The notes under the pieces: model-generated
The model's database searches: none
What the model was told of the DNA's origin: nothing
The model's input: the letters and a program-made list of their open reading frames with translations, nothing else
Source: Gammaproteobacteria bacterium
Lineage (GTDB): Bacteria > Pseudomonadota > Gammaproteobacteria > Enterobacterales > Psychrobiaceae
Assembly (NCBI GenBank): GCA_013214885.1
Contig: JABSRS010000005.1
Span: forward strand, 1 to 19,374
Direction of reading: 5' to 3'
DNA: 19,374 nt
Program-made: the position numbers and the translations under genes
Shown here: positions 1 to 9,903 of the stretch, one piece after another
Numbering within the stretch: position 1 is the stretch's first letter
How the letters are laid out: every line of letters begins with the position of its first letter

Positions 1-725
1 GACAAGAAATGAACCCAATCACTACGGTTTCTTTTTTTACTTTCATTTACAGCACGCTGATAATCATAAGGAACTTTGATGTTTTGAACAACCCATTCAG
101 AGTCAACTTTTTCAACTATTGAATATGACGCGTGATGAGTAAAGTTTTCCATAGAGTGAACCACTGGTTCTTCATCTGTATATGCTTGCAGGCCAACACT
201 TCCTGGGTTAACAATAAGTTGACCACTACTCAAGTTTACAGCTCTAGGTGTGTGAGTATGGCCACAGCATATTAGCTTAGATTTTTGACCCGCGAGTAAA
301 TCTATTATTTCGTTATCTGAACGCAGTAAAGCATAACCTCTACTCACATCTTCCAACAAATAAACTAAGTCATTTTTTGGAGTACCATGACAAAAATAAA
401 CATCTTCATTTACTTGTTTATCAAAAGGTAGTGATTTCATCCACTCTAATGGTTTGGAGCCTAAATCGTCCAAAATAAATTGCATGGTTGGGTTTGATTC
501 TATTTCTTCATCCGTTGATTCGTAAATTTGACGGTCTTGATTACCTGAAATTGTAATAAAATCATGTTCCATCAAAAGTTCAAAAGTAGACATAGGGGCA
601 ACTGGGCCATAAAGAATATCACCAAGATTTGCTTTTAAATCTACGGAATGCCTTTTTAGATCCTTAATGACAGCATCAAGGGCGAAAACGTTACTATGAA
701 TGTCTGATAATACGGCAATCTTCAT
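1..725 (-). CDS. metallophosphoesterase, calcineurin-like/YfcE type (3' end outside window)
   Basis: An open frame of 241 codons runs from an ATG at 725 off the left edge of the window with no stop. The N-terminus MKIAVLSDIHSN carries the first metal-binding motif (D8, H10). It is followed by LGDILYG (G35-D36), GNQD (61-64), a CHG at 112-114 and CGHTH (H156, H158). In order, these are the signatures of the calcineurin-like phosphoesterase superfamily, small YfcE-type subgroup, which are dinuclear-metal phosphodiesterases or phosphatases. The usual GNHD motif reads GNQD, so the histidine that normally helps catalysis is glutamine here. The start follows a purine-rich TAAGAG stretch. As a cassette gene it lies 17 bp from attC site 742-856. 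Substrate unknown. Confidence 0.85.
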   Translation of the reverse strand, partial: MKIAVLSDIHSNVFALDAVIKDLKRHSVDLKANLGDILYGPVAPMSTFELLMEHDFITISGNQDRQIYESTDEEIESNPTMQFILDDLGSKPLEWMKSLPFDKQVNEDVYFCHGTPKNDLVYLLEDVSRGYALLRSDNEIIDLLAGQKSKLICCGHTHTPRAVNLSSGQLIVNPGSVGLQAYTDEEPVVHSMENFTHHASYSIVEKVDSEWVVQNIKVPYDYQRAVNESKKRNRSDWVHFL

Positions 726-741
726 TGGATACTCTTAGGAT

Positions 742-856
742 ATAACGCCCGCCTAACGGGCAAATTGTAATGAAGCATTTTTGTGTGATACTGACGCGCA
801 GCGGCATCACAAAAATGCGGAGTGAAAATTTGTCCCAGTTTAGGCGCTTGTTATAA
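742..856 (-). repeat. attC recombination site (115 bp)
   Basis: The plus strand runs from TAACGCCC (743) to GTTATAA (850-856), and the two ends can fold onto each other: GCCTAACGGGCAAATT near the left pairs with AATTTGTCCCAGTTTAGGC near the right, and CATTTTTGTG pairs with CACAAAAATG inside. On the minus strand it starts TTATAACAAGCGCC and ends GGGCGTTATA, very like the Vibrio cholerae repeat type. It is the attC of the 88-residue membrane-protein cassette or the junction to the phosphoesterase cassette. Confidence 0.85.
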
Positions 857-866
857 GCCGCCTACG

Positions 867-1133
867 TTAATCAGAAACATCATTAGAACCGCTGTCTGGG
901 CTATTGTTGGTTCCCATTTCATCAAGTGCTTCGCCCATCAGCGATGTTTTAATAGGTGTAAAATCAAGTTTGTTGTCAACATAATATGCCCCAAATATAG
1001 GGATAAACCAAGCGACGACTAAATAGAAAACTTTAACGAATCCGTTGAGATGAAAACTCTCATAAATACTAAAAGTAGAATATCCCGCTATCAAGCAATG
1101 AATGAAAACAATGATTAACAAATATGATTCCAT
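867..1133 (-). CDS. small two-span membrane protein (cassette gene)
   Basis: This 88-residue protein has two hydrophobic segments, about residues 4-25 and 31-52, with a short polar link (YESFHLNG) and an acidic, Ser/Asn-rich soluble tail (53-88). The second span, with VVAWFIPIFGAYYV, loosely resembles the PLDc_N type of short membrane domain, but this is only a resemblance by eye. A good ribosome site (CGGAG, 4-5 nt before the ATG at 1133) supports the start. It is the only gene between two attC sites (742-856 and 1149-1249), so it is a cassette. Function unknown. Confidence 0.75.
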   Translation of the reverse strand: MESYLLIIVFIHCLIAGYSTFSIYESFHLNGFVKVFYLVVAWFIPIFGAYYVDNKLDFTPIKTSLMGEALDEMGTNNSPDSGSNDVSD

Positions 1134-1148
1134 AATTCTCCGAAGGCT

Positions 1149-1249
1149 TATAACGCCGTTTTAAGCGGCAAATTGCAGTTGGCAAAAATAAGTGAGGCAC
1201 GAACAAAAAACCAACTGTAATTTGTCCGCCTTGAAAACCCTTGTTAGGT
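1149..1249 (-). repeat. attC recombination site (about 101 bp)
   Basis: The left end is TAACGCCGTTTTAAGCGG and the right end CCGCCTTGAAAACCCTTGTTAGGT, which pair imperfectly. Inner arms CAAATTGCAGTTGG and CCAACTGTAATTTG also pair. The minus-strand outer box ACCTAAC (1243-1249) fits RYYYAAC exactly. The O-methyltransferase stop codon begins at its edge (1250). Confidence 0.85.
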
Positions 1250-1939
1250 TTATATTTTCCTTACCAATGTGATTCCATCAGCTATTTGTAACATACTAAT
1301 ATCAACACGATTATCATCTTTAAGTTTCAAATTAAGATCCCTGATAGCTTGAATACTACTTTCTGGCAGCATTTTTTTTAATTTCTCATCTAATATATTG
1401 GAGTCAATAACAGAACCAAAAAGAAGAACGTTATCAATTGCCATTAGTCCCCCTTTTCGCAGTAATTTGAGTGAAAGCTCATAGTATTTATCATAATTAT
1501 CTTTATCTGCATCGATAAATACAAAATCATATGATTCACTTTGGCCATCTTCTAATAACGATTTAAGAGTATCTATTGCTGGGGCTATTCTTAGATCAAT
1601 TTTAGAATATACCGCAGCCTCTTTCCAATATTTTTTTGCAATAGTAGTCCACTCGTAACTAACATCACATGCGATGGTATAACTATCATTTGGCATTGCT
1701 TGAGCTACACATAATGTGCTGTAACCTGTATAAACCCCAATTTCAATTGTTCTTTTTGCGCCAATAAGCTTAACCAAAAATGCCATAAACTGACCTTGTT
1801 CTGGTGGGATTTGCATAACAGATTTAGGATCTTTTCCTGTTTCAACCCTAAGGCGATTTAGAATATCTGACTCTCTTAAAGAGCTTGCGAGAACATACTG
1901 ATACATATTGTTAACTAAGTCTAATTTACCTTTTTCCAT
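1250..1939 (-). CDS. SAM-dependent O-methyltransferase, class I (caffeoyl-CoA OMT-like)
   Basis: The 229-residue protein has the length and motif order of the cation-dependent O-methyltransferase family (PF01596). The SAM-binding motif EIGVYTGYS lies at 66-74, the metal-region FIDADKDNY at 141-149, DN at 169-170 after GGLMAI, and the C-terminal RVDISMLQIADGITLVRK is typical. It would move a methyl group from SAM to a hydroxyl of a small aromatic or other molecule; the substrate cannot be told. The start is fixed by GAGGT a few bases before the ATG at 1939. It is a single-gene cassette between attC 1149-1249 and attC 1977-2085. The family is seen in bacterial chromosomes outside integrons, so here it is cargo. 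Confidence 0.9.
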   Translation of the reverse strand: MEKGKLDLVNNMYQYVLASSLRESDILNRLRVETGKDPKSVMQIPPEQGQFMAFLVKLIGAKRTIEIGVYTGYSTLCVAQAMPNDSYTIACDVSYEWTTIAKKYWKEAAVYSKIDLRIAPAIDTLKSLLEDGQSESYDFVFIDADKDNYDKYYELSLKLLRKGGLMAIDNVLLFGSVIDSNILDEKLKKMLPESSIQAIRDLNLKLKDDNRVDISMLQIADGITLVRKI

Positions 1940-1976
1940 GTATACCTCAAATGAGAATGCTGACTTATTTTTAAAC

Positions 1977-2085
1977 CTAACGCCACCCTAAGCCGCAGAT
2001 AATGCTGGCGCAGGTTTTTTGCGTTTTTTGTTGTTTGCGAAAAATGCGACAGTGTTAGCTGTCGGACTTTAGGGTCTTGTTATGT
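1977..2085 (-). repeat. attC recombination site (109 bp), near-identical copy A
   Basis: Runs from TAACGCCACCCTAAGCCG (1978) to GGACTTTAGGGTCTTGTTATGT (to 2085). The arms CACCCTAA / TTAGGGTC and GCGACAGTG / AATGCTGGCGC fold on each other. It differs from the site at 2361-2469 at only about three positions: one T/C change, one A in a run of A, and the last variable bases. Confidence 0.9.
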
Positions 2086-2103
2086 TTTAGTTCGCCAAAT
2101 AGT

Positions 2104-2337
2104 CTACAGCTTATTATTCCGTTTTTTTAACAGTATATCGATAAAATAATTACAAACAATTAGCAATATTATAGTCATAAATATGAACGCGCCTAAAAGA
2201 GTATAGCTACCGAACATTAACTCATTTTTCACGTAATGTACTTGCTGAACAGGGGTAAAAAAAATATTTATTGAAAGAGGAATGTACGTTCCCAAAAAAA
2301 GTAATCCAATAACGCATAGACCAATTTTTTTTATCAT
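2104..2337 (-). CDS. small two-span membrane protein (cassette gene)
   Basis: The frame is open from 2361 to 2104 (85 codons). I place the start at the internal ATG at 2337, giving 77 residues beginning MIKKIGLCVIG, because a GGAG lies 11 nt before it. The first ATG (2359-2361) overlaps the T of the attC core box and has no room for its own ribosome site inside the cassette. The protein has two hydrophobic spans (about 4-22 and 43-65 from the chosen start), a short outer or inner loop with VQQVHYVKNEL, and a basic tail KKRNNKL. No family recognised. It lies between two nearly identical attC sites. Confidence 0.65.
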   Translation of the reverse strand: MIKKIGLCVIGLLFLGTYIPLSINIFFTPVQQVHYVKNELMFGSYTLLGAFIFMTIILLIVCNYFIDILLKKRNNKL

Positions 2338-2360
2338 GCGCTTGAATACTCCGTAAAACA

Positions 2361-2469
2361 TAACGCCACCCTAAGCCGCAGATAATGCTGGCGCAGGTTT
2401 TTTGCGCTTTTTGTTGTTTGCGAAAAAATGCGACAGTGTTAGCTGTCGGACTTTAGGGTCTTGTTATAT
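2361..2469 (-). repeat. attC recombination site (109 bp), near-identical copy B
   Basis: Runs from TAACGCCACC (2361) to GTTATAT (2463-2469) and matches the site at 1977-2085 almost base for base. The left boundary touches the first possible ATG of the neighbouring gene, and the right part carries the stop codon of the gene at 2453-2710. Confidence 0.9.
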
Positions 2470-2710
2470 TTGAGTTAACTCTGGTTTTTTTTAACGATAA
2501 TTTCATCGGTTTTGAGAAAAAATTTAAGAGTGGTATTTTTGATAACAATTTTTGACCGCCTACACCGTAAACAATGAATGTAATAGAAATGACCAATCTT
2601 AACGTAAACTCAATAATCGATGGTGTTGATGTGCCAATATCTGTAAATAATAGATATACAGTTAAAACACCAACAAATAAACTTATAGATCTCAATATGA
2701 AATTTATCAT
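2453..2710 (-). CDS. small membrane protein (cassette gene)
   Basis: This 85-residue protein has two hydrophobic segments (about 4-23 and 32-52), then a basic, Lys/Ser-rich end (FFSKPMKLSLKKTRVNSNITRP). The second segment, IIEFTLRLVISITFIVYGVGG, and the length recall small uncharacterised integral membrane proteins; no family is assigned. The start at 2710 has AAGGAAG 5 nt upstream. The stop codon and the last five codons (NITRP region) are supplied by attC 2361-2469, so the end of the protein depends on which attC is attached. Cassette gene, function unknown. Confidence 0.65.
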   Translation of the reverse strand: MINFILRSISLFVGVLTVYLLFTDIGTSTPSIIEFTLRLVISITFIVYGVGGQKLLSKIPLLNFFSKPMKLSLKKTRVNSNITRP

Positions 2711-2732
2711 TCGCGCTTCCTTGTTTGAAAAT

Positions 2733-2831
2733 ATAACGCCGCATTAAGCGGTGAGTAACAGTTTGCTAAAATGTGGAACGAAGTGGAACCGAGCAAATTG
2801 TTACGAATCCGACTTTAATGCCTTGTTAGCA
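2733..2831 (-). repeat. attC recombination site (about 99 bp)
   Basis: Runs from TAACGCCGCATTAAGCGG (2734) to CGACTTTAATGCCTTGTTAGCA (2831). Outer arms GCATTAAG / CTTTAATGC and inner arms AACAGTTTGCT / AGCAAATTGTT pair with the usual bulges. The minus-strand box is TGCTAAC. The acetyltransferase stop codon (2826-2828) lies inside this outer box. Confidence 0.85.
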
Positions 2832-3374
2832 TGTTTTAATAGATAGTTTAACAGTCTCTTTTGCATTTTGTTTTTTCGATTTTTTAAAGCCTACTTTATA
2901 AATCATAGTTAGCATAACTGTTGATGCGCTATAAAGCCTAGCTACCATAGTGCTCCCTTTCGGAATTGACTTCAAAGAATGGCTTAACAACTCAGAGCCT
3001 ATGCCTTTCTTTCTATTTTTAGGTGCAACTGACAGCATATAAATCTCAAATTCTGAAGGCTTATTTCGTATGACCCAATAAAAGCCTACTAGATCGTCGT
3101 TTATAGATGCCACATAGAAGCGTGAAGAAACGATTCCGTTTACAGTTTCACAAGAATTAGACTTAACGCTATCTTCAATCTGTTTTTTAATACCAAGATG
3201 ATATCGGGGAATTACAAAAGCAGAGTTGAAATGTCCTGATTTAGAACCCTCAATGATTTGGTTAAAAATAAAATCAGAGTCTAAAAAATCAGCACTCTTA
3301 ATGACAACTGAGTTATCTACTTCAGTTAGTACATTATCTTTAGTTGAGAAAAACTCTTTTATACTCTTAAACAA
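2826..3374 (-). CDS. GNAT-family N-acetyltransferase (cassette gene)
   Basis: The 182-residue protein carries the acetyl-CoA binding motif A: a beta strand FEIYMLSVAP (about 109-118) followed by RKKGIG at 121-126, the R/Q-x-x-G-x-G/A signature, then helix SELLSHSL. The later part RLYSASTVMLTMIYKVGFKKSKK matches the end of the fold (…A…YxKxGF). Residues 1-25 are an extra leader before the domain. The start is a TTG at 3374, fixed by AAGGAG 8 nt upstream; there is no in-frame ATG before about residue 113. It transfers an acetyl group from acetyl-CoA to an unknown amine. Cassettes often carry GNAT genes. The TAA stop sits within attC 2733-2831. Confidence 0.88.
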   Translation of the reverse strand: MFKSIKEFFSTKDNVLTEVDNSVVIKSADFLDSDFIFNQIIEGSKSGHFNSAFVIPRYHLGIKKQIEDSVKSNSCETVNGIVSSRFYVASINDDLVGFYWVIRNKPSEFEIYMLSVAPKNRKKGIGSELLSHSLKSIPKGSTMVARLYSASTVMLTMIYKVGFKKSKKQNAKETVKLSIKTC

Positions 3375-3392
3375 CCAGCTTACTCCTTCATG

Positions 3393-3484
3393 CTAACGCT
3401 TTAATTAAACTGCTCGATCGAAATAAAAAAAGTGGCGCTTGCGCCATCAAATCATCGAGTCTGCTTTGAATTATCTTGTTAAAT
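3393..3484 (-). repeat. attC-like recombination site (92 bp)
   Basis: The plus strand runs from TAACGCT (3394) to GTTAAAT (3478-3484), which fits GTTRRRY exactly. Arms with TAATTAAAC-TGCTCGAT and ATCGAG-TCTGCTTTGAATTA pair imperfectly, and a central hairpin GGCGCTTGCGCC caps the structure. It is shorter and more diverged than the other five sites. It separates the acetyltransferase cassette from the region taken by the IS91-like element; it could instead be part of a lost cassette upstream. Confidence 0.7.
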
Positions 3485-3652
3485 TGCCGCTATGGAGAAC
3501 TCACAGGATAATTACTTATTTTATCGCTCCCAACTTATCCTGTTTAGGCTGTTGACACAACCTCTATCTTGCTGTTTTAATTTACTTAATCTCACTTACC
3601 TATCTTTCACGCACGATTTGTTCTACTGTGACCAGCAAGCTATTTAATGATC
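3485..3652. other. noncoding flank between last attC and the transposase gene
   Basis: There is no coding frame here. It holds the short remnant 3485-3496, a GAAC tetranucleotide (3497-3500) and the presumed 3' end of the IS91-like element with its inverted repeat. A TTGACA at 3554-3559 on the plus strand lacks a convincing -10 partner. Confidence 0.5.
3503..3543. repeat. inverted repeat, possible oriIS
   Basis: ACAGGATAA (3503-3511) and TTATCCTGT (3535-3543) are perfect inverted repeats with a 23-bp loop. On the gene strand they stand at the 3' end of the element, 2-3 bp before GTTC. A hairpin at this place is expected for a rolling-circle replication origin of an IS91 element; the assignment is by position and not by match to a known end. 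Confidence 0.5.
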
Positions 3653-4792
3653 TTAAACTGTCGCTAATATTAACTCCCTCGCACTTCTTCTAATTAAACT
3701 AACAAGTTTACCTTGGCAATACTGACAGCATGGTATTTGACTCTTGCTCGCTAAGTATTCGTTCCAGTTTAATTCTTGGGCCGGCGTAACCGCTGACTGC
3801 TTAAAGTGGACCCGCGCGTGATTCAATACCTTTCGCCCTGCGGAGTGATACAAGCCGAAGCGCCGTAACGACATTAATCTTGGAACGCTAATGTGATTAA
3901 TGATGCGACCAATAAAATGCTCGACGTCTAGTTTGAGATATTCGGTATGCTTGGTTTGATGAGATTGATACCGAAATAGTACTGTATCGTTATTCATGTT
4001 GAGTAGTTGGCTGTTACGCACAGCACCACCTTTAATGTACCTGCCCAAGTACTTGGCGACACTGGTGCCATATTTATACGGATCACAGCAATGTAACACC
4101 CAATCTGTTCGCCCCAATTTATTGCACAGATTGAGCGTTTGCTGTGGGGGGCTATCTGGTGGAAGAATCAGCTCACCTCGCTTAGCACTTTTTCTCAAAC
4201 CATCGAGCAACTTGCCTCGAAAAATTGCCATCATCACTTTAGCCGGTAAAAAGACCGTTCGCTTTGGCGTCACCCACTGATTATCACTGCTGAGCCCGCC
4301 GTGAGTGATTAAACAATGAATATGTGGATGGAGCACCAGATTTCTAGCCCACGTATGAAGCGCCAACAAATAGCCAGGCGAAGCACCGAGGTATTTATTA
4401 TCACTGCTGAGCTTTTTGATTGTATCGCTCACGCACTTAAATAAGAGCTGCTGGAATAGCGCGCGGTTATATCGCCACAGCGGCAATAGGTCGTGAGGGA
4501 TAGTAAATACCCAATGATGATGGGTAGTATTAAGCATTAATTCGTTGAGTTTGAGCTGCCAGCGTTCGGATGCTATTCCGTGGCATTGTGGGCAGTTCCG
4601 ATGTTTGCAGCTGTTGTACCAAATCCCATGTAAATGACCATTTTCGCAATACACACTATGCCCGCCAAGCTTTGCTGTTCGGCAGTTTCGCATCGCACGT
4701 AGCGCTTTATATTGGTACTGCGCAAGCTTGTGATTTTGTAGATAGGCCTCAAGGTGAGTCTGAAGCAAGGATTGAATAGTTAATTTAGCCAT
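3653..4792 (-). CDS. IS91-family transposase (Y2 HUH-type)
   Basis: This 379-residue protein has the layout of IS91-type transposases (PF14319 zinc-binding part, then PF04986). The N-terminal metal site has C37, C49, H53/H55, C62, C67 and C70 in the pattern CxENGHxHGIWYNSCKHRNCPQCHG. The HUH motif is HPHIHC (H157, H159), preceded by LHTWARNL, typical of the family. The two catalytic tyrosines four residues apart are Y248 and Y252 in KYLGRYI. The enzyme nicks one strand and moves the element by rolling-circle transfer. All key residues are present and the frame is intact, so it is probably active. The start ATG at 4792 has only a weak ribosome site. Confidence 0.93.
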   Translation of the reverse strand: MAKLTIQSLLQTHLEAYLQNHKLAQYQYKALRAMRNCRTAKLGGHSVYCENGHLHGIWYNSCKHRNCPQCHGIASERWQLKLNELMLNTTHHHWVFTIPHDLLPLWRYNRALFQQLLFKCVSDTIKKLSSDNKYLGASPGYLLALHTWARNLVLHPHIHCLITHGGLSSDNQWVTPKRTVFLPAKVMMAIFRGKLLDGLRKSAKRGELILPPDSPPQQTLNLCNKLGRTDWVLHCCDPYKYGTSVAKYLGRYIKGGAVRNSQLLNMNNDTVLFRYQSHQTKHTEYLKLDVEHFIGRIINHISVPRLMSLRRFGLYHSAGRKVLNHARVHFKQSAVTPAQELNWNEYLASKSQIPCCQYCQGKLVSLIRRSARELILATV

Positions 4793-5110
4793 AGAAATAG
4801 GCTAGTTCATAACTATACATTTATCCAGCATAGAGTTTTATCACGCTGATTTTAATGGGTTTAAAGCCTTCCCCGAGCTTGCTCGGCAAATTTAACATTT
4901 GTATATGAGGCATCCTCATTTTGTTTTACAGCTGTTATTTTAATAATATAAATTAAAACAACATACTATGTCGTTTTAAGTACAAATAACAGCCAAACAA
5001 AGCGTGCATGCCTCCTTTTACGATTAGATTAAATATAACTCACTGTTTATGAAGTACAATTTTCAACATAACAAAGGTAACCGTGAATCGAGATCATTTA
5101 GTAAACAATA
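4793..5110. other. intergenic region between IS91-like element and roxA
   Basis: No coding frame is supported. It contains the hairpin CCGAGC-TT-GCTCGG (4873-4886) and a large imperfect palindrome (4907-5014). The unplaced terIS end of the insertion element should lie somewhere in its first part, and any transcription terminator of roxA in its last part. Confidence 0.6.
4907..5014. repeat. large imperfect palindrome (108 bp)
   Basis: Four pairs of arms nest in order: GAGGCAT (4907-4913) with ATGCCTC (5008-5014); a TTGTTT / AAACAA block; GCTGTTATTT (4931-4940) with AAATAACAGC (4984-4993); and TTAAAACAACATA (4953-4965) with TATGTCGTTTTAA (4967-4979, one mismatch). The closing loop is a single base pair or so. 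The outer boxes do not match the RYYYAAC/GTTRRRY pattern of attC, so I do not call it one. It could be an element end, a folded RNA or a relic cassette site. Confidence 0.6.
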
Positions 5111-6253
5111 TTAATCCTGTTCAAAGTACCAATAACCAGCGTTAACCCAAGTTGTTAGCTGCTGTACAAACTGTGGTTGCTGCAACCAGCTCTCAAGTTG
5201 CTGAGCTGTTAATGACTGTTGGTCACATAGCACAGGAATAACGTCAGCTAAGTCAGTCGATAGCACTTCCTGCTCACCATTAATGTAGAAAATACCTTGT
5301 GATACGGTTTTTTCAAGATACATACAACGTAAGCCACCTAACTTAATTAACGGCTGTTCTTTGAGCATTGCAACGACATCTTCAGCTTGAAAACCTAGAT
5401 TTTCTGATGGTAAATCGAGATCGCATTTAGAGTTAGTTAGATAACGCCCTGCCAGATCACTGATTAATTGGTCGTCTAATGTGTCGAGTAATTGTTGTTT
5501 AATTAGCGCTAGATCTTGATTGTTTATTTGACCCGAGGTGGTGCTTACGCTGCGGTCTGGATCGGCAATTTGTTGCGATCCCAGTTCGTTGTCAATTAAG
5601 TAATCAGCCAACACACTGTGCATATCACGCGCAGAAGCCGTGCGATAACCAACAGAAAAACTCATTGAGTTTGTTAATGACACGCCATCGTGAGGAAAAC
5701 CAGGCGGGATATATAATATGTCACCAGTTTTTAGTTCAATATCAATGATTGGTTCAAATTCTTCAACATGAAGTAATGCAGGGTGTGCTGCAAATTCTTT
5801 ATGGTCGCCAATGTCACCAACACGCCAGCGACGGCTACCTGAGCCTTGGCAAATAAATACATCGTAAAGGTCGATATGAGGACCAACACCGCCACCAGGA
5901 GTACCGTAGCTAACCATGACGTCATCGAGACGCCAGCGCGGAATAAAGTCGAAACATTTAATTAATTCGTCGGCTTCAGGAACCCAGTTATTGAGTGCTT
6001 GAACGATAAAAGTCCAATCTTTTTCACCCAAGTGATCATAGGATTCGAAAGGACCAAACTCAGCTTGCCACTCGCCGTTTTCTTTAAATACTCGGCGTGA
6101 TTCAATTTGTTCTTCGGTGGCTAAACCAGCCATTTCTTCAGGGCTTAATAAGTCTTTAAAGTTTTTAAAACCTTGGCGGATCACTAATGGTTTTTTTTGC
6201 CAATAATCTTTTAAGAATTGTTCAGGGGTAATATCGTTAATTGTTAATATCAT
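5111..6253 (-). CDS. roxA: 50S ribosomal protein L16 arginine hydroxylase (cupin/JmjC dioxygenase)
   Basis: The 380-residue protein matches Escherichia coli YcfD/RoxA in length and plan. It is an Fe(II)- and 2-oxoglutarate-dependent oxygenase that hydroxylates an arginine of ribosomal protein L16. The iron ligands are H126 and D128 in VGPHIDLYDVF and H188 in PPGFPHDG; the fold start PLVIRQ and the strand-rich core GSRRWRVG and LKTGDILYIPPG are typical. The C-terminal half is the winged-helix and dimer part. The ATG at 6253 has a weak GAG upstream. Its upstream DNA holds an inverted repeat (6263-6311). The gene is usually found elsewhere than beside mnmG. Confidence 0.92.
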   Translation of the reverse strand: MILTINDITPEQFLKDYWQKKPLVIRQGFKNFKDLLSPEEMAGLATEEQIESRRVFKENGEWQAEFGPFESYDHLGEKDWTFIVQALNNWVPEADELIKCFDFIPRWRLDDVMVSYGTPGGGVGPHIDLYDVFICQGSGSRRWRVGDIGDHKEFAAHPALLHVEEFEPIIDIELKTGDILYIPPGFPHDGVSLTNSMSFSVGYRTASARDMHSVLADYLIDNELGSQQIADPDRSVSTTSGQINNQDLALIKQQLLDTLDDQLISDLAGRYLTNSKCDLDLPSENLGFQAEDVVAMLKEQPLIKLGGLRCMYLEKTVSQGIFYINGEQEVLSTDLADVIPVLCDQQSLTAQQLESWLQQPQFVQQLTTWVNAGYWYFEQD

Positions 6254-6262
6254 AATTGCTCA

Positions 6263-6311
6263 CGCTCATAATTTTTTTTGATATTAACAATATTAAAAAT
6301 ATTTATGAGCG
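6263..6311. repeat. AT-rich inverted repeat upstream of roxA
   Basis: CGCTCATAA (6263-6271) and TTATGAGCG (6303-6311) are perfect 9-bp arms, with further pairing between ATTTTTTTT-GATATT and AATATT-AAAAATA. It lies just before roxA and just after the phosphatase pseudogene, so it may serve as a terminator of the latter or as an operator for roxA. Confidence 0.45.
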
Positions 6312-6362
6312 ATTAAGATCAAGCAATATTAAAGCGAGTCATTAATTAACAACCAAGCTGAT

Positions 6363-7531
6363 TTAAGTCAAAAAATTAAAACTAGCGACCGTTAAATCAT
6401 CAGGACATTCTTTAGGATATTTATATTTTATGGTTTCCACCAATCGGTTGAATCCTTTATTTTTGTCACCATTGAAATAGCTAATAATGTTTTCTTCATT
6501 GAGTAAATTCCCTTTGAAGTCTGGAGATTCGGTCAGGGCATTGCTATAAAGTAACAACGTATCACCAGGTGAAAAATGCACTTCTTTTGTTTTATAAACA
6601 TGGTCAGATATGGTGCTAAATAAATAACTACTGCCATCGATTATTTCTGCTTGGCCATTCTCACGAAATATTAACGGTGCTGGGCAGCTTGCGGTTGCAT
6701 ATTTTAAGCTGTGCTCTTTTATATTGATAATGCCATAAAACATCGTAGAAAATTGCCCGGTTGGTAGTAGTGCTGCCAACTCTTTATTAAGCTGAGTCAA
6801 GTATTCACCAGGATCTTTATGATGGTAATAAAATTGTGCCATTAGGGTATGAAGTCTAAAAGTATTTAAAGCAGCGTTAATACCGTGGCCTGAAAAATCA
6901 ACTAAATAAACCACAAGTTTACTATCCGATAGTTGATGAATTCCCAAAAAGTCACCACCTAATTCTGAACAGGTAACCTCATGATGTCTAACATTAACGT
7001 TATATCTTTGCTGGACGTTATTTAACATTTTATCAGAGGGAATTAACACTTGTTGTGTTTGCGATGCCATCGCTAGCTCATCTTGCATGCGACAGTGAAA
7101 TAATGACAATTGGGTACGTTCAAGATGTGAGTATATTCGTGCTATAAATTCAGTTTGATCGATAGGTTTTGACACAGAATCACAAGCTCCAGCATCAAAA
7201 ATCTGTTGCTTATCTTCCCCTCAGGTTCTGCCTGTTTGGGTGATAATTGGGATATGTTTTAATGCCGGGTCACTGGTTATTTTACGACAAAATTCAATGC
7301 CATTCATTTGCGGCATTTCAATGTCGAGGATAATGAGATCGGGACGATTATTTTTATTTTATAGAAGCCCTCAACACCGTTAGTAGCCTCTTTGATATGA
7401 ACAAAACCTACGGTTTCTAAAATATGCCGCAAGACTAAACGTTAAAATCGATTATCTTCAATAATCAATAACTTGCTATTTTTTCTAAGCTGTTCTCTTG
7501 AGGTTAGTTCGGCCGCTACTATATCAGGCAT
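6363..7531 (-). pseudogene. response-regulator receiver / SpoIIE-PP2C phosphatase, receiver part broken
   Basis: The 3' part (7175-6363) is an open frame of 270 codons with a PP2C-like serine phosphatase domain of the SpoIIE/RsbU type: SELGGDFLG, LVDFSGHG and CPDDLTV hold the metal-binding Gly-Asp and Asp residues. Upstream, the remains of a receiver domain can be read from an ATG at 7531: LLIIEDNRF, then LVLRHILETVGFVHIKEATNGVEGFY; after a frame change, RPDLIILDIEMPQMNGIEFCRKIT, PIITQTGRT, and GACDSVSKPID. Lesions are a TAA at 7442-7444, a shift in the A/T run at about 7350-7362, and a TGA at 7221-7223. The phosphorylated Asp is in LILDIEMP and the conserved Lys in SKP. Both stops fit C-to-T changes (CAA or CGA). 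The GTG at 7175 lies inside the receiver end and has no ribosome site, so the phosphatase may not be made. Intact homologues act in general-stress or biofilm signalling. Confidence 0.85.
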
Positions 7532-7632
7532 ATTTAGTCACTCCTTTGACTAGATAAATCATCCGTGATTTATATATATTAATAGCTGTAAGTTACAACT
7601 TATGCCGATAATGTAAAGCTAATGAATCTGAT

Positions 7633-7664
7633 AACACCAGTTTTTATAAAATAAAACTGGTGTT
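7633..7664 (-). terminator. stem-loop after mnmG
   Basis: AACACCAGTTTT (7633-7644) and AAAACTGGTGTT (7653-7664) form a perfect 12-bp stem with a 9-base loop, 15 bp past the mnmG stop. On the minus strand no strong run of T follows the stem, so it may be a weak terminator or a processing hairpin. Confidence 0.5.
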
Positions 7665-7678
7665 AATTAAGGGGGTGC

Positions 7679-9568
7679 TTAACTGGCTTTTTTCAACAGC
7701 CCTTTTTTCTTCATATAAACGAGTAATAAAGACACTGCAGCTGGGGTAATACCAGAAATACGTGATGCCATGCCAACAGTCGCAGGACGAGCGTCGGTTA
7801 ACTTGATCACGACTTCATTAGATAGTCCTGATATTTGACTAAAATCTAAATCAACAGGTAATAAAGTATTTTCATGACGCTGCTGTTTTTTCACTTCGTC
7901 CATTTGACGCGCAATATAGCCAGCGTATTTAATTTGAGTTTGAACTTGATAAGCCGCATCTTTTTTGTCAAGACCTGGACCACAACCTTCAATTTTCATT
8001 AAATTTTCGTAGTCGACTTCTGGGCGACGCAATAAATCTTCTAAACTGGCTTCGCGGCTCATTGGTGTTTTCAAAAATTGATTTAACTGATCAGCCTGTG
8101 GGCTTTTAATTTGGATCCAATGTTTGTTAAGACGCTGCTTTTCAAGTTCAACAGATTCTAACTTTTCGCTAAACAAGTTCCAACGATGATCATCTACTAA
8201 GCCCATTTCACGACCAATTTGGGTTAGACGAATATCGGCATTGTCTTCACGTAACAATAATCGGTATTCGGCGCGACTGGTAAACATCCGATAAGGTTCG
8301 GTGGTACCTAATGTTGACAGATCATCAATTAGTACACCCATGTAAGCTTGATCGCGACGTGGTGACCATGATTCTAAACCTTGTGCCTGTCTAGCTGCGT
8401 TCATGCCCGCTATTAGGCCTTGAGCGCCAGCTTCTTCATAACCAGTTGTGCCGTTGATTTGGCCAGCAAAGAATAAACCGTTAATGAATTTGTTTTCTAG
8501 GCTTGGTTTTAAATCGCGTGGATCGAAGTAATCATATTCAATCGCGTAACCAGGACGGGTAATAAAGGCATTTTCAAATCCGTTCATCGAGTGAACTAGT
8601 TCAACTTGAACATCGAACGGCAAGCTGGTTGAAATACCATTAGGATAAATTTCATTAGTGGTTAGGCCTTCTGGCTCAACAAAAATTTGATGTGAATTTT
8701 TATCAGCAAAGCGAGTCACTTTATCTTCGATAGATGGGCAGTAACGAGGCCCTGTTCCTTCAATGATACCAGTGAACATTGGACTGCGATCTAAACCATT
8801 ACGAATAATCTCGTGAGTTCTTTCGTTGGTATGCGTTATATAACAAGGAATTTGTCGTGGATGATCACTAGCCTGACCGATATATGAGAAAACTGGTATT
8901 GGGGTATCGCCTGGTTGCGCTTCTAGTTTTGAGAAGTCGATAGTACGAGCATCGATACGTGGCGGTGTACCGGTTTTTAACCGACCTACTCGAACTGGTA
9001 ATTCACGTAAACGATCTGCTAAGCGAATTGATGCTTGATCGCCAGCTCGGCCACCTGAATGATTTTTCAATCCAATATGAATACGACCACCTAAAAATGT
9101 GCCAACGGTTAATACGACACTCGTTGCTTTAAAGATAATCCCCATTTGAGTGACTACACCCGTTACCTGATCGTTTTCAACCACCAGGTCATCACAAGAT
9201 TGCTGGAAGATGGTGAGGTTAGGCTGGTTTTCTAATTTGGTTCGAATAGCTGCTTTGTAGAGAGCGCGATCGGTTTGAGCGCGAGTTGCTCTAACCGCAG
9301 GTCCTTTGCTTGAATTTAATGTTCTAAATTGAATCCCAGACAAATCGGTTGCCTGAGCCATGTATCCGCCCAATGCATCAATTTCTTTAACCAAATGACC
9401 CTTGCCAATGCCGCCAATGGCTGGGTTACAAGACATTTGGCCCAAAGTATCGATGTTATGCGTTAACAAAAGAGTTTTTTGCCCCATTCGGGCCGATGCC
9501 AGTGCGGCTTCGGTTCCAGCATGACCACCTCCGATCACGATCACATCAAATTTTTTGTTAAATAACAT
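7679..9568 (-). CDS. mnmG: tRNA uridine-5-carboxymethylaminomethyl modification enzyme MnmG
   Basis: The 629-residue protein matches MnmG (GidA) throughout. The FAD-binding [12 protein letters not shown] lies at about 13-24, and [24 protein letters not shown] and [24 protein letters not shown] are family signatures. The C-terminal helical part (…[13 protein letters not shown]…) that contacts MnmE is present. With MnmE it installs the cmnm5/nm5 group on the wobble uridine of certain tRNAs. It lies next to oriC and is transcribed away from it, as in Escherichia coli. Start ATG at 9568 is the family start ([15 protein letters not shown]). Its usual downstream partner rsmG is absent here. Confidence 0.98.
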
Positions 9569-9805: not shown

Positions 9806-9814
9806 TGTGAATAA
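9806..9814 (-). promoter_or_regulatory. DnaA box TTATTCACA
   Basis: TGTGAATAA on the plus strand is the box TTATTCACA on the minus strand, a medium-affinity form of TTATNCACA. Confidence 0.75.
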
Positions 9815-9823
9815 AAAGGGCAC

Positions 9824-9832
9824 TTATCCACA
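9824..9832 (+). promoter_or_regulatory. DnaA box TTATCCACA (consensus)
   Basis: Exact match to the high-affinity consensus, nine bases after the previous box and in the opposite direction. A weaker TTATTCAAC follows at 9852-9860. Confidence 0.88.
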
Positions 9833-9894
9833 GGCGTTTTCAAAATGGAAGTTATTCAACAATAAGTATTTTTATTTGGGGGGATATAAGGTAG

Positions 9895-9903
9895 TTATCC
9901 ACA
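9895..9903 (+). promoter_or_regulatory. DnaA box TTATCCACA (consensus, R4-like)
   Basis: Exact match to the consensus, on the mioC side and in the same direction as R4 in Escherichia coli. Confidence 0.88.

Follow-up and report, generated by a model that had tools for sequence, protein, structure and literature searches.

An integrase-less block of six cassettes near oriC in a gammaproteobacterial contig, possibly inserted at a G^TT outside attI

Integron cassettes reportedly integrate outside attI, at attG-type sites, in the experimental library of Loot et al. from 2024, work known here through the papers that cite it. In sedentary chromosomal integrons (SCIs), the bottom strand of attC lies on the leading-strand template in 25 of 30 cases (PMC5371416; this and the other PMC-numbered sources are cited from excerpts). 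The V. cholerae array has IS3 in two of its cassettes and IS911 in one (PMC11023631). Clusters of attC sites lacking an integron integrase (CALINs), for which IntegronFinder takes two or more attC sites, have a mean size of "almost 6" (PMC9024848). The array described here lies in a window of 19,374 nucleotides, positions 1 to 19,374 of contig C444 (JABSRS010000005.1; 26,555 bp), from the draft assembly GCA_013214885.1 of a Gammaproteobacteria bacterium of the family Psychrobiaceae (601 contigs, 3.68 Mb, 88.9% complete); on the left, window and contig start together. As read from the sequence, positions 746-4895 form a block of six cassettes, ∼4.15 kb in length, one of which carries an IS91-family transposase gene.

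The array is a real CALIN that adds to a known class, and its position is unusual. Five strong attC sites and a weak one were found within 2.8 kb with no integron integrase (IntI) nearby, about equal to the mean CALIN size, although the array is cut at the contig start. It differs from CALINs in general in its distance of 5-6 kb to oriC, in ends that are readable as exact G^TT joints, and in the alternative linkage of one cassette end within the same assembly. With the Vibrio-type SCI and its V. cholerae repeats (VCRs), it shares the anatomy of attC and the placing of the attC bottom strand on the leading-strand template, but it is small, adjoins oriC, and has neither intI nor attI. The transposase gene within a cassette recalls the V. 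cholerae cassettes bearing insertion sequences, although the family in the window is IS91 (HUH). As in attG integration, the cassette block meets ordinary chromosome at a G^TT, with attI absent; the window would be a natural multi-cassette case as against an experimental library. The reading preferred here, to which a probability of roughly 0.55 is assigned, is that IntI inserted the six-cassette block at a non-attI G^TT near oriC.

The attC sites were identified with a covariance model (R1) trained on 16 attC sites from other genomes (Vibrio, Salinivibrio, Thalassotalea, Colwellia, Endozoicomonas, Desulfopila, and one further gammaproteobacterium) and on none from the window. Training sites came from 80 of 116 attC-bearing loci, in which 114 of 133 pattern matches were retained (19 lacked a paired 3′ end) before reduction to 16. 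A search of the window with filters off returned five sites at E values of 1.7e-11 to 1e-14 and a sixth, attC 6, that was weak (Table 1). Most of the six attC-like sites of the original prediction were thus matched by a covariance model, as it had proposed to check. The remaining 30 of the 36 R1 matches reached at most 16.4 bits, at a hairpin at 7632-7665. When folded as single-stranded DNA, the plus strand of attC 1-5, which is the attC bottom strand, gave z scores of −2.8 to −5.5 relative to the shuffle mean and was more stable than the top strand. Chance inverted repeats are rejected on the R1 scores together with the pairing of R″ and 5′ core within each cassette, considered below. Rfam gave zero matches at gathering scores in the window. 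The first 72 nucleotides of attC 3 and attC 4 are 97% identical, and both sites resemble others on contigs C182, C167, and C53 of the assembly at 95-97%; near-identical copies of this kind are likely to break contigs.

The bases that follow the 5′ G^TT of a true cassette pair with the R″ box of that cassette's own attC. Uninterrupted complementary runs of 8-11 bases were present in all six window cassettes. The summed core/R″ score of 57 was achieved by one of the 720 possible assignments of R″ boxes to cassettes, namely the true one (mean 31.2). In a wider core search, attC 4 took a core outside the array by one extra match, and the permutation test used the core at the array position. In the intI-bearing array of genome G002 (L306), which served as a control, a run of at least 9 bases matched the core for 9 of the 10 attC rows given, out of 17 listed. 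The core search outside the window covered a subset of attC rows, without locus L304 and without the site at 4024-4117 of L093, which was passed over for its closeness to a contig edge. The strict 7-base boxes GTTRRRY and RYYYAAC fit, by eye, in two of six cases at each box, and GTTA and TAAC occur in six of six; cassette boxes are degenerate, so that misfit to the strict 7-mer is no bar to cassette identity. The original prediction had placed six single-gene cassettes between a phosphoesterase gene and an IS91-like element. The number six stands, but only five cassettes lie in that interval. The sixth holds the IS91-family gene itself, so the feature extends over 746-4895 and not 1-3484. The 85-residue protein encoded at 2104-2361 is 94% identical to the product of the first cassette at the attI beside intI in G003 (L365), and at least this cassette is therefore part of the integron pool of the genus. 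Promoter-like sites in 1-6400 numbered 20 against a shuffle mean of 20.5, that is, without excess.

IntI was present in 24 of the 39 genomes searched, including six of eight congeners, but not in the genome studied here. The best single stretch matching TIGR02249 in its 88.9% complete assembly scored 86.5 bits, where the cut-off is 265, and none was found at E ≤1e-40. Integrases encoded on contigs C1 and C584 were rejected as IntI, being far below the cut-off and located before Y2/IS91-type transposase genes. The same combination, attC sites without an IntI at E ≤1e-40, occurs in genome G005, whose completeness is given as 100%. Other contigs of the genome studied carry at least 12 attC sites (on eight contigs), several of which adjoin, by eye, ordinary-chromosome-looking genes. 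Inspection of G002, G003, and G004 reveals that attI reads ATATACT/GTTA (the slash marking the boundary), and the joint in the window reads differently. The intI and attI of a complete integron or SCI were not found at the array; what the original prediction had called an integron holds as a cassette array. Its left flank, which was to be searched as well, ends with the start of C444 at the window edge; the search made for intI and attI yielded none for the array.

Integrase-less arrays are often taken for decayed integrons. Such an origin, in which a resident integron lost intI and most of attI and left six cassettes behind, is rather unlikely here. The joint ATACAAATG^TTAAAT on the side of the RoxA-like gene does resemble the minimal delta-attI2 consensus AATAAAATGTTRRRY (PMC12901181), but the interval from 4897 to the stop of the JmjC gene at 5111 has no open reading frame (ORF) of 60 or more residues. 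Moreover, attC was not found at this locus in eight congeners, and the intI genes of congeners sit elsewhere: beside pfaD in G003 (PfaD domain by Pfam) and, by eye, next to genes of the polyunsaturated fatty acid (PUFA)-synthase type in G004 (L366) and G008 (L368) and of the sucCD type in G002. For the array studied here, the two ends and the alternative junction favor insertion at a site other than attI.

Such an insertion would begin with the IntI of the lineage cutting the block, as a multi-cassette circle, out of an array elsewhere. The circle would then enter a G^TT other than attI (attG-type), between the RoxA-like gene and the phosphoesterase leader, 5-6 kb from oriC. Before insertion, the uninterrupted site would have read ATACAAATG followed by TTATATCC. 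On the minus strand, the start of the block on the RoxA side reads ...CATATACAAATG^TTAAATTTGCC. G^TT lies at both proposed ends, and attI at neither; for the left end, the argument hinges on the phosphoesterase gene being backbone. From the GTT onward, 15 consecutive bases of the phosphoesterase leader are common to the window, G074, and G106, and G009 has one difference. Before the GTT, the window agrees with these genomes at only 11-12 of 39 bases (12 with G074 and 11 with G106), whereas G074 shares 23 of the 39 with G009 and 34 with G106. Among 20 other copies of the phosphoesterase gene, 19 had no attC match (E ≤0.1) in the flanks retrieved and one had, so that the gene is more likely backbone than cassette in the window. 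As a cassette, it would need a following attC with an R″ box matching GTTATATCC. In G004, a cassette without a listed upstream attC starts after GGTATAGAAAT/GTTA, compared with CATATACAAAT/GTTA in the window, a resemblance that is suggestive only.

The other end of the block is a fork in the assembly. Positions 1-77 of contig C211 are 100% identical to 4820-4896 of the window, and the two sequences diverge just past the G of G^TT. Beyond the divergence, C211 continues with three attC sites, the first two separated by a LysE cassette and the last two by a 105-residue ORF, and then with a DUF1706 gene; genes for an M9 peptidase, a TrmK-like methyltransferase, and a helicase lie further on. The linkage of the array to oriC is provisional as a result of this fork. 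A second exact 77-nucleotide overlap joins the end of C228 to C173 (C173:2693; L093 and L305), and two such overlaps at contig ends suggest forks of a graph with k = 77. By eye, the C228/C173 overlap falls close to where a transposase-like ORF ends, next to attC-bearing sequence.

It could accordingly be argued that the array belongs to the M9 peptidase-TrmK-helicase locus of C211 and that the join to oriC is wrong or a minority path, the more so as integrons are split in draft assemblies (PMC9024848). This is considered distinctly unlikely. A k-mer graph would be expected to retain only read-supported joins, so that both joins at 4896, to the JmjC side and to C211, are probably present in the reads. 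The alternatives also part exactly at G^TT, as recombination predicts, and no further exact contig-end overlap occurred among the 14 matches listed for 1-7700 of the window (40 of 50 candidates scored, binned contigs). If the oriC join fails, the array is an ordinary CALIN.

IntI-mediated insertion can also be given a source. C211 may be the home array, from which a six-cassette circle with the transposase cassette leading would have moved by a recent, natural attG insertion, leaving both junctions in one assembly; this version is tentative and has somewhat less than an even chance. If it is true, cassette traffic between two chromosomal loci has been caught within one population. If both junctions are confirmed, the window provides a natural multi-cassette example of a route known mainly from laboratory libraries, and insertion of this kind, if true, could be screened for by a match of core and R″ within each cassette together with G^TT ends without attI.

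Several observations weigh against insertion. Through C211, the IS91 end of the block, if not all of it, has a connection elsewhere as well. An empty site, with the JmjC and phosphoesterase genes as neighbors, was not found in any genome, and 12 mnmG loci were without a JmjC match. At the left end, G074, G106, and G009, which share the leader, belong to one genus and hence are not independent; the phosphoesterase gene has a patchy distribution, occurring in 20 of 394 genomes with the one studied counted; and its ATG closely follows the GTT, so that a seventh, cut-off cassette is possible. The fold of attC 6 is no better than that of shuffles, with a bottom strand no stabler than the top, and its assignment, which is weak, derives mainly from the match of R″ to 5′ core. 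Finally, elsewhere in the same genome a core run of at least 9 was seen for just 3 of the 11 attC rows given, which suggests that other cassettes there have been eroded or interrupted or run off a contig end.

In one-ended, rolling-circle transfer of IS91 elements, the DNA that is carried along lies outward of the transposase gene on its 5′ (terIS) side. The gene in the sixth cassette well exceeds the cut-off for the IS91 family (NF033538, 359.9 bits; cut-off 125) and encodes the Y2 transposase domains PF04986 and PF14319. It is nevertheless highly improbable that the element brought the neighboring cassettes by such transposition: they lie on the 3′ side of the gene, opposite to one-ended transfer; the gene is flanked by cassette core boxes; and the assembly has a single close copy, the remaining matches being at most 37% identical.

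Along C444, the block edge (4896) is 4.9 kb and the nearest attC 6.3 kb from oriC, in agreement with the ∼6 kb of the original prediction, although this distance runs across the fork at 4896. The array genes are directed away from oriC, so that the attC bottom strand serves as the leading-strand template, an orientation in which excision is limited. In 12 mnmG loci of 10-20 kb from 11 relatives, eight of them of the same genus, the model gave no attC at E ≤1. The array is therefore no fixed feature of the locus, and the same six genes in fixed order without attC, a possibility raised with the original prediction, were not encountered in these 11 relatives. None of the 80 attC-bearing loci examined, out of 116, matched window mnmG, mioC, mnmE, yidC, or dnaA at E ≤1e-10. 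Within the loci examined, the location is thus as unusual as had been supposed. Titles and abstract openings in the literature, and for the cassette also text passages on IS91, yielded neither a natural integron array beside oriC nor an IS91 cassette, which is weak evidence of absence. A high gene dose near the origin had also been proposed; a gene-dose effect of the array is unsupported, and the V. cholerae superintegron, whichever way round it was placed near the chromosome 1 origin, caused no growth difference (PMC11551772).

Table 1. Coordinates of the array, its proposed ends, and neighboring features in the window (scores of attC sites are from model R1)
Feature	Coordinates	Strand	Remarks
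Metallophosphoesterase	3-725	-	PF12850; final 6 residues lost at contig end; probable backbone flank
G^TT joint in phosphoesterase leader	726-746	-	Leader GTTATATCCTAAGAG
attC 1 (88-aa-gene cassette)	743-853	-	48.6 bits, E 1.7e-11; + strand fold z -4.22; its G^TT joins the phosphoesterase leader
Cassette, 88-aa ORF (867-1133)	746-1153	-	Core run 10; no match in Pfam, PADLOC, or NCBIfam
attC 2	1151-1246	-	57.6 bits, E 5.4e-14
Cassette, O-methyltransferase (1250-1939)	1154-1980	-	PF01596, E 3.9e-69; core run 10
attC 3	1978-2082	-	60.2 bits, E 1e-14
Cassette, 85-aa ORF (2104-2361)	1981-2363	-	Core run 11; L339 94% over 85 aa
attC 4	2361-2466	-	60.0 bits, E 1.2e-14
Cassette, 85-aa ORF (2453-2710)	2364-2736	-	Core run 9; no match in Pfam, PADLOC, or NCBIfam
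attC 5	2734-2828	-	57.5 bits, E 5.7e-14
Cassette, GNAT acetyltransferase (2826-3374)	2737-3396	-	PF13508, E 1.6e-08; core run 9
attC 6 (weak)	3394-3481	-	19.5 bits, E 0.002; fold z 0.32; terminator-like hairpin 3446-3433 inside (terminator scan)
Cassette with IS91-family transposase gene (3653-4792)	3397-4895	-	5′ core GTTAAATTTGCC, R″ GGCAATTTAAC, run 8
G^TT joint, RoxA-like side	4896-4897	-	ATACAAATG^TTAAAT; no attC before; fork with contig C211
RoxA-like JmjC protein	5111-6253	-	Shewanella-like xenolog, not the roxA of the genus
Receiver-SpoIIE phosphatase gene, broken	6363-7530 (upper limit approximate)	-	Compared with G004, reading frame changed and interrupted by two stops
oriC	9806-9903	.	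Three TTATNCACA boxes at 9806 (-), 9824 (+), and 9895 (+), between mnmG and mioC

A 13-mer, ATTCTACAGCCTC, was observed flush with cassette boundaries, either before /GTTA or inverted after the G^TT of a last attC. It occurs on contigs C1 (L096), C173 (L305), and C182 (L092) of the assembly and also at L104, L320, L328, and L354. At L104, a gene-less stretch of ∼150 nucleotides with inverted ATTCTACAGCCTC ends lies between an attC and the next cassette. A 29-nucleotide palindromic cassette target, suggested by the 13-mer at cassette ends, was considered and rejected, no empty palindrome being present in 372 loci or in the viral contigs (viral_contigs); given the element at L104, an inserted element is the simpler explanation, and it looks as if a ATTCTACAGCCTC-ended element inserts at attC cut points. 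At L308 (contig C43 of G002), CCGTACAATAAGCT-like sequence followed by GTT appears twice before possible first cassettes. The intI of G002 is on another contig, and these sequences are possibly attI copies without an integrase.

A homolog of the phosphoesterase, P0121, is full-length at 247 residues. Relatives of the SpoIIE phosphatase are encoded downstream of mnmG, immediately in G004 and at a distance of 3.5 kb in G003, and that part of the contig therefore looks native. An rsmG gene (PF02527) was not found in the 88.9% complete assembly; the ORFs listed after mnmG in G002, G003, G004, and G008 are, by eye, not rsmG-like. The JmjC protein is 48-52% identical to six full-length congener copies, compared with mostly 64-73% for the Shewanella proteins among 120 listed, and its named best matches are from Shewanella, at up to 73%. 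JmjC proteins P0002-P0005, from metagenome contigs, show 72-79% identity to it. The JmjC gene beside the block thus looks foreign by these comparisons. It was rejected as the orthologous roxA, the window protein being closer to Shewanella and a roxA of the genus type lying on C153: roxA adjoins purB in G002, and the purB contig of the genome studied, C153 (L254), ends in a similar roxA start (MYTINLNDLTPQ versus MYSINLNDLTPQ).

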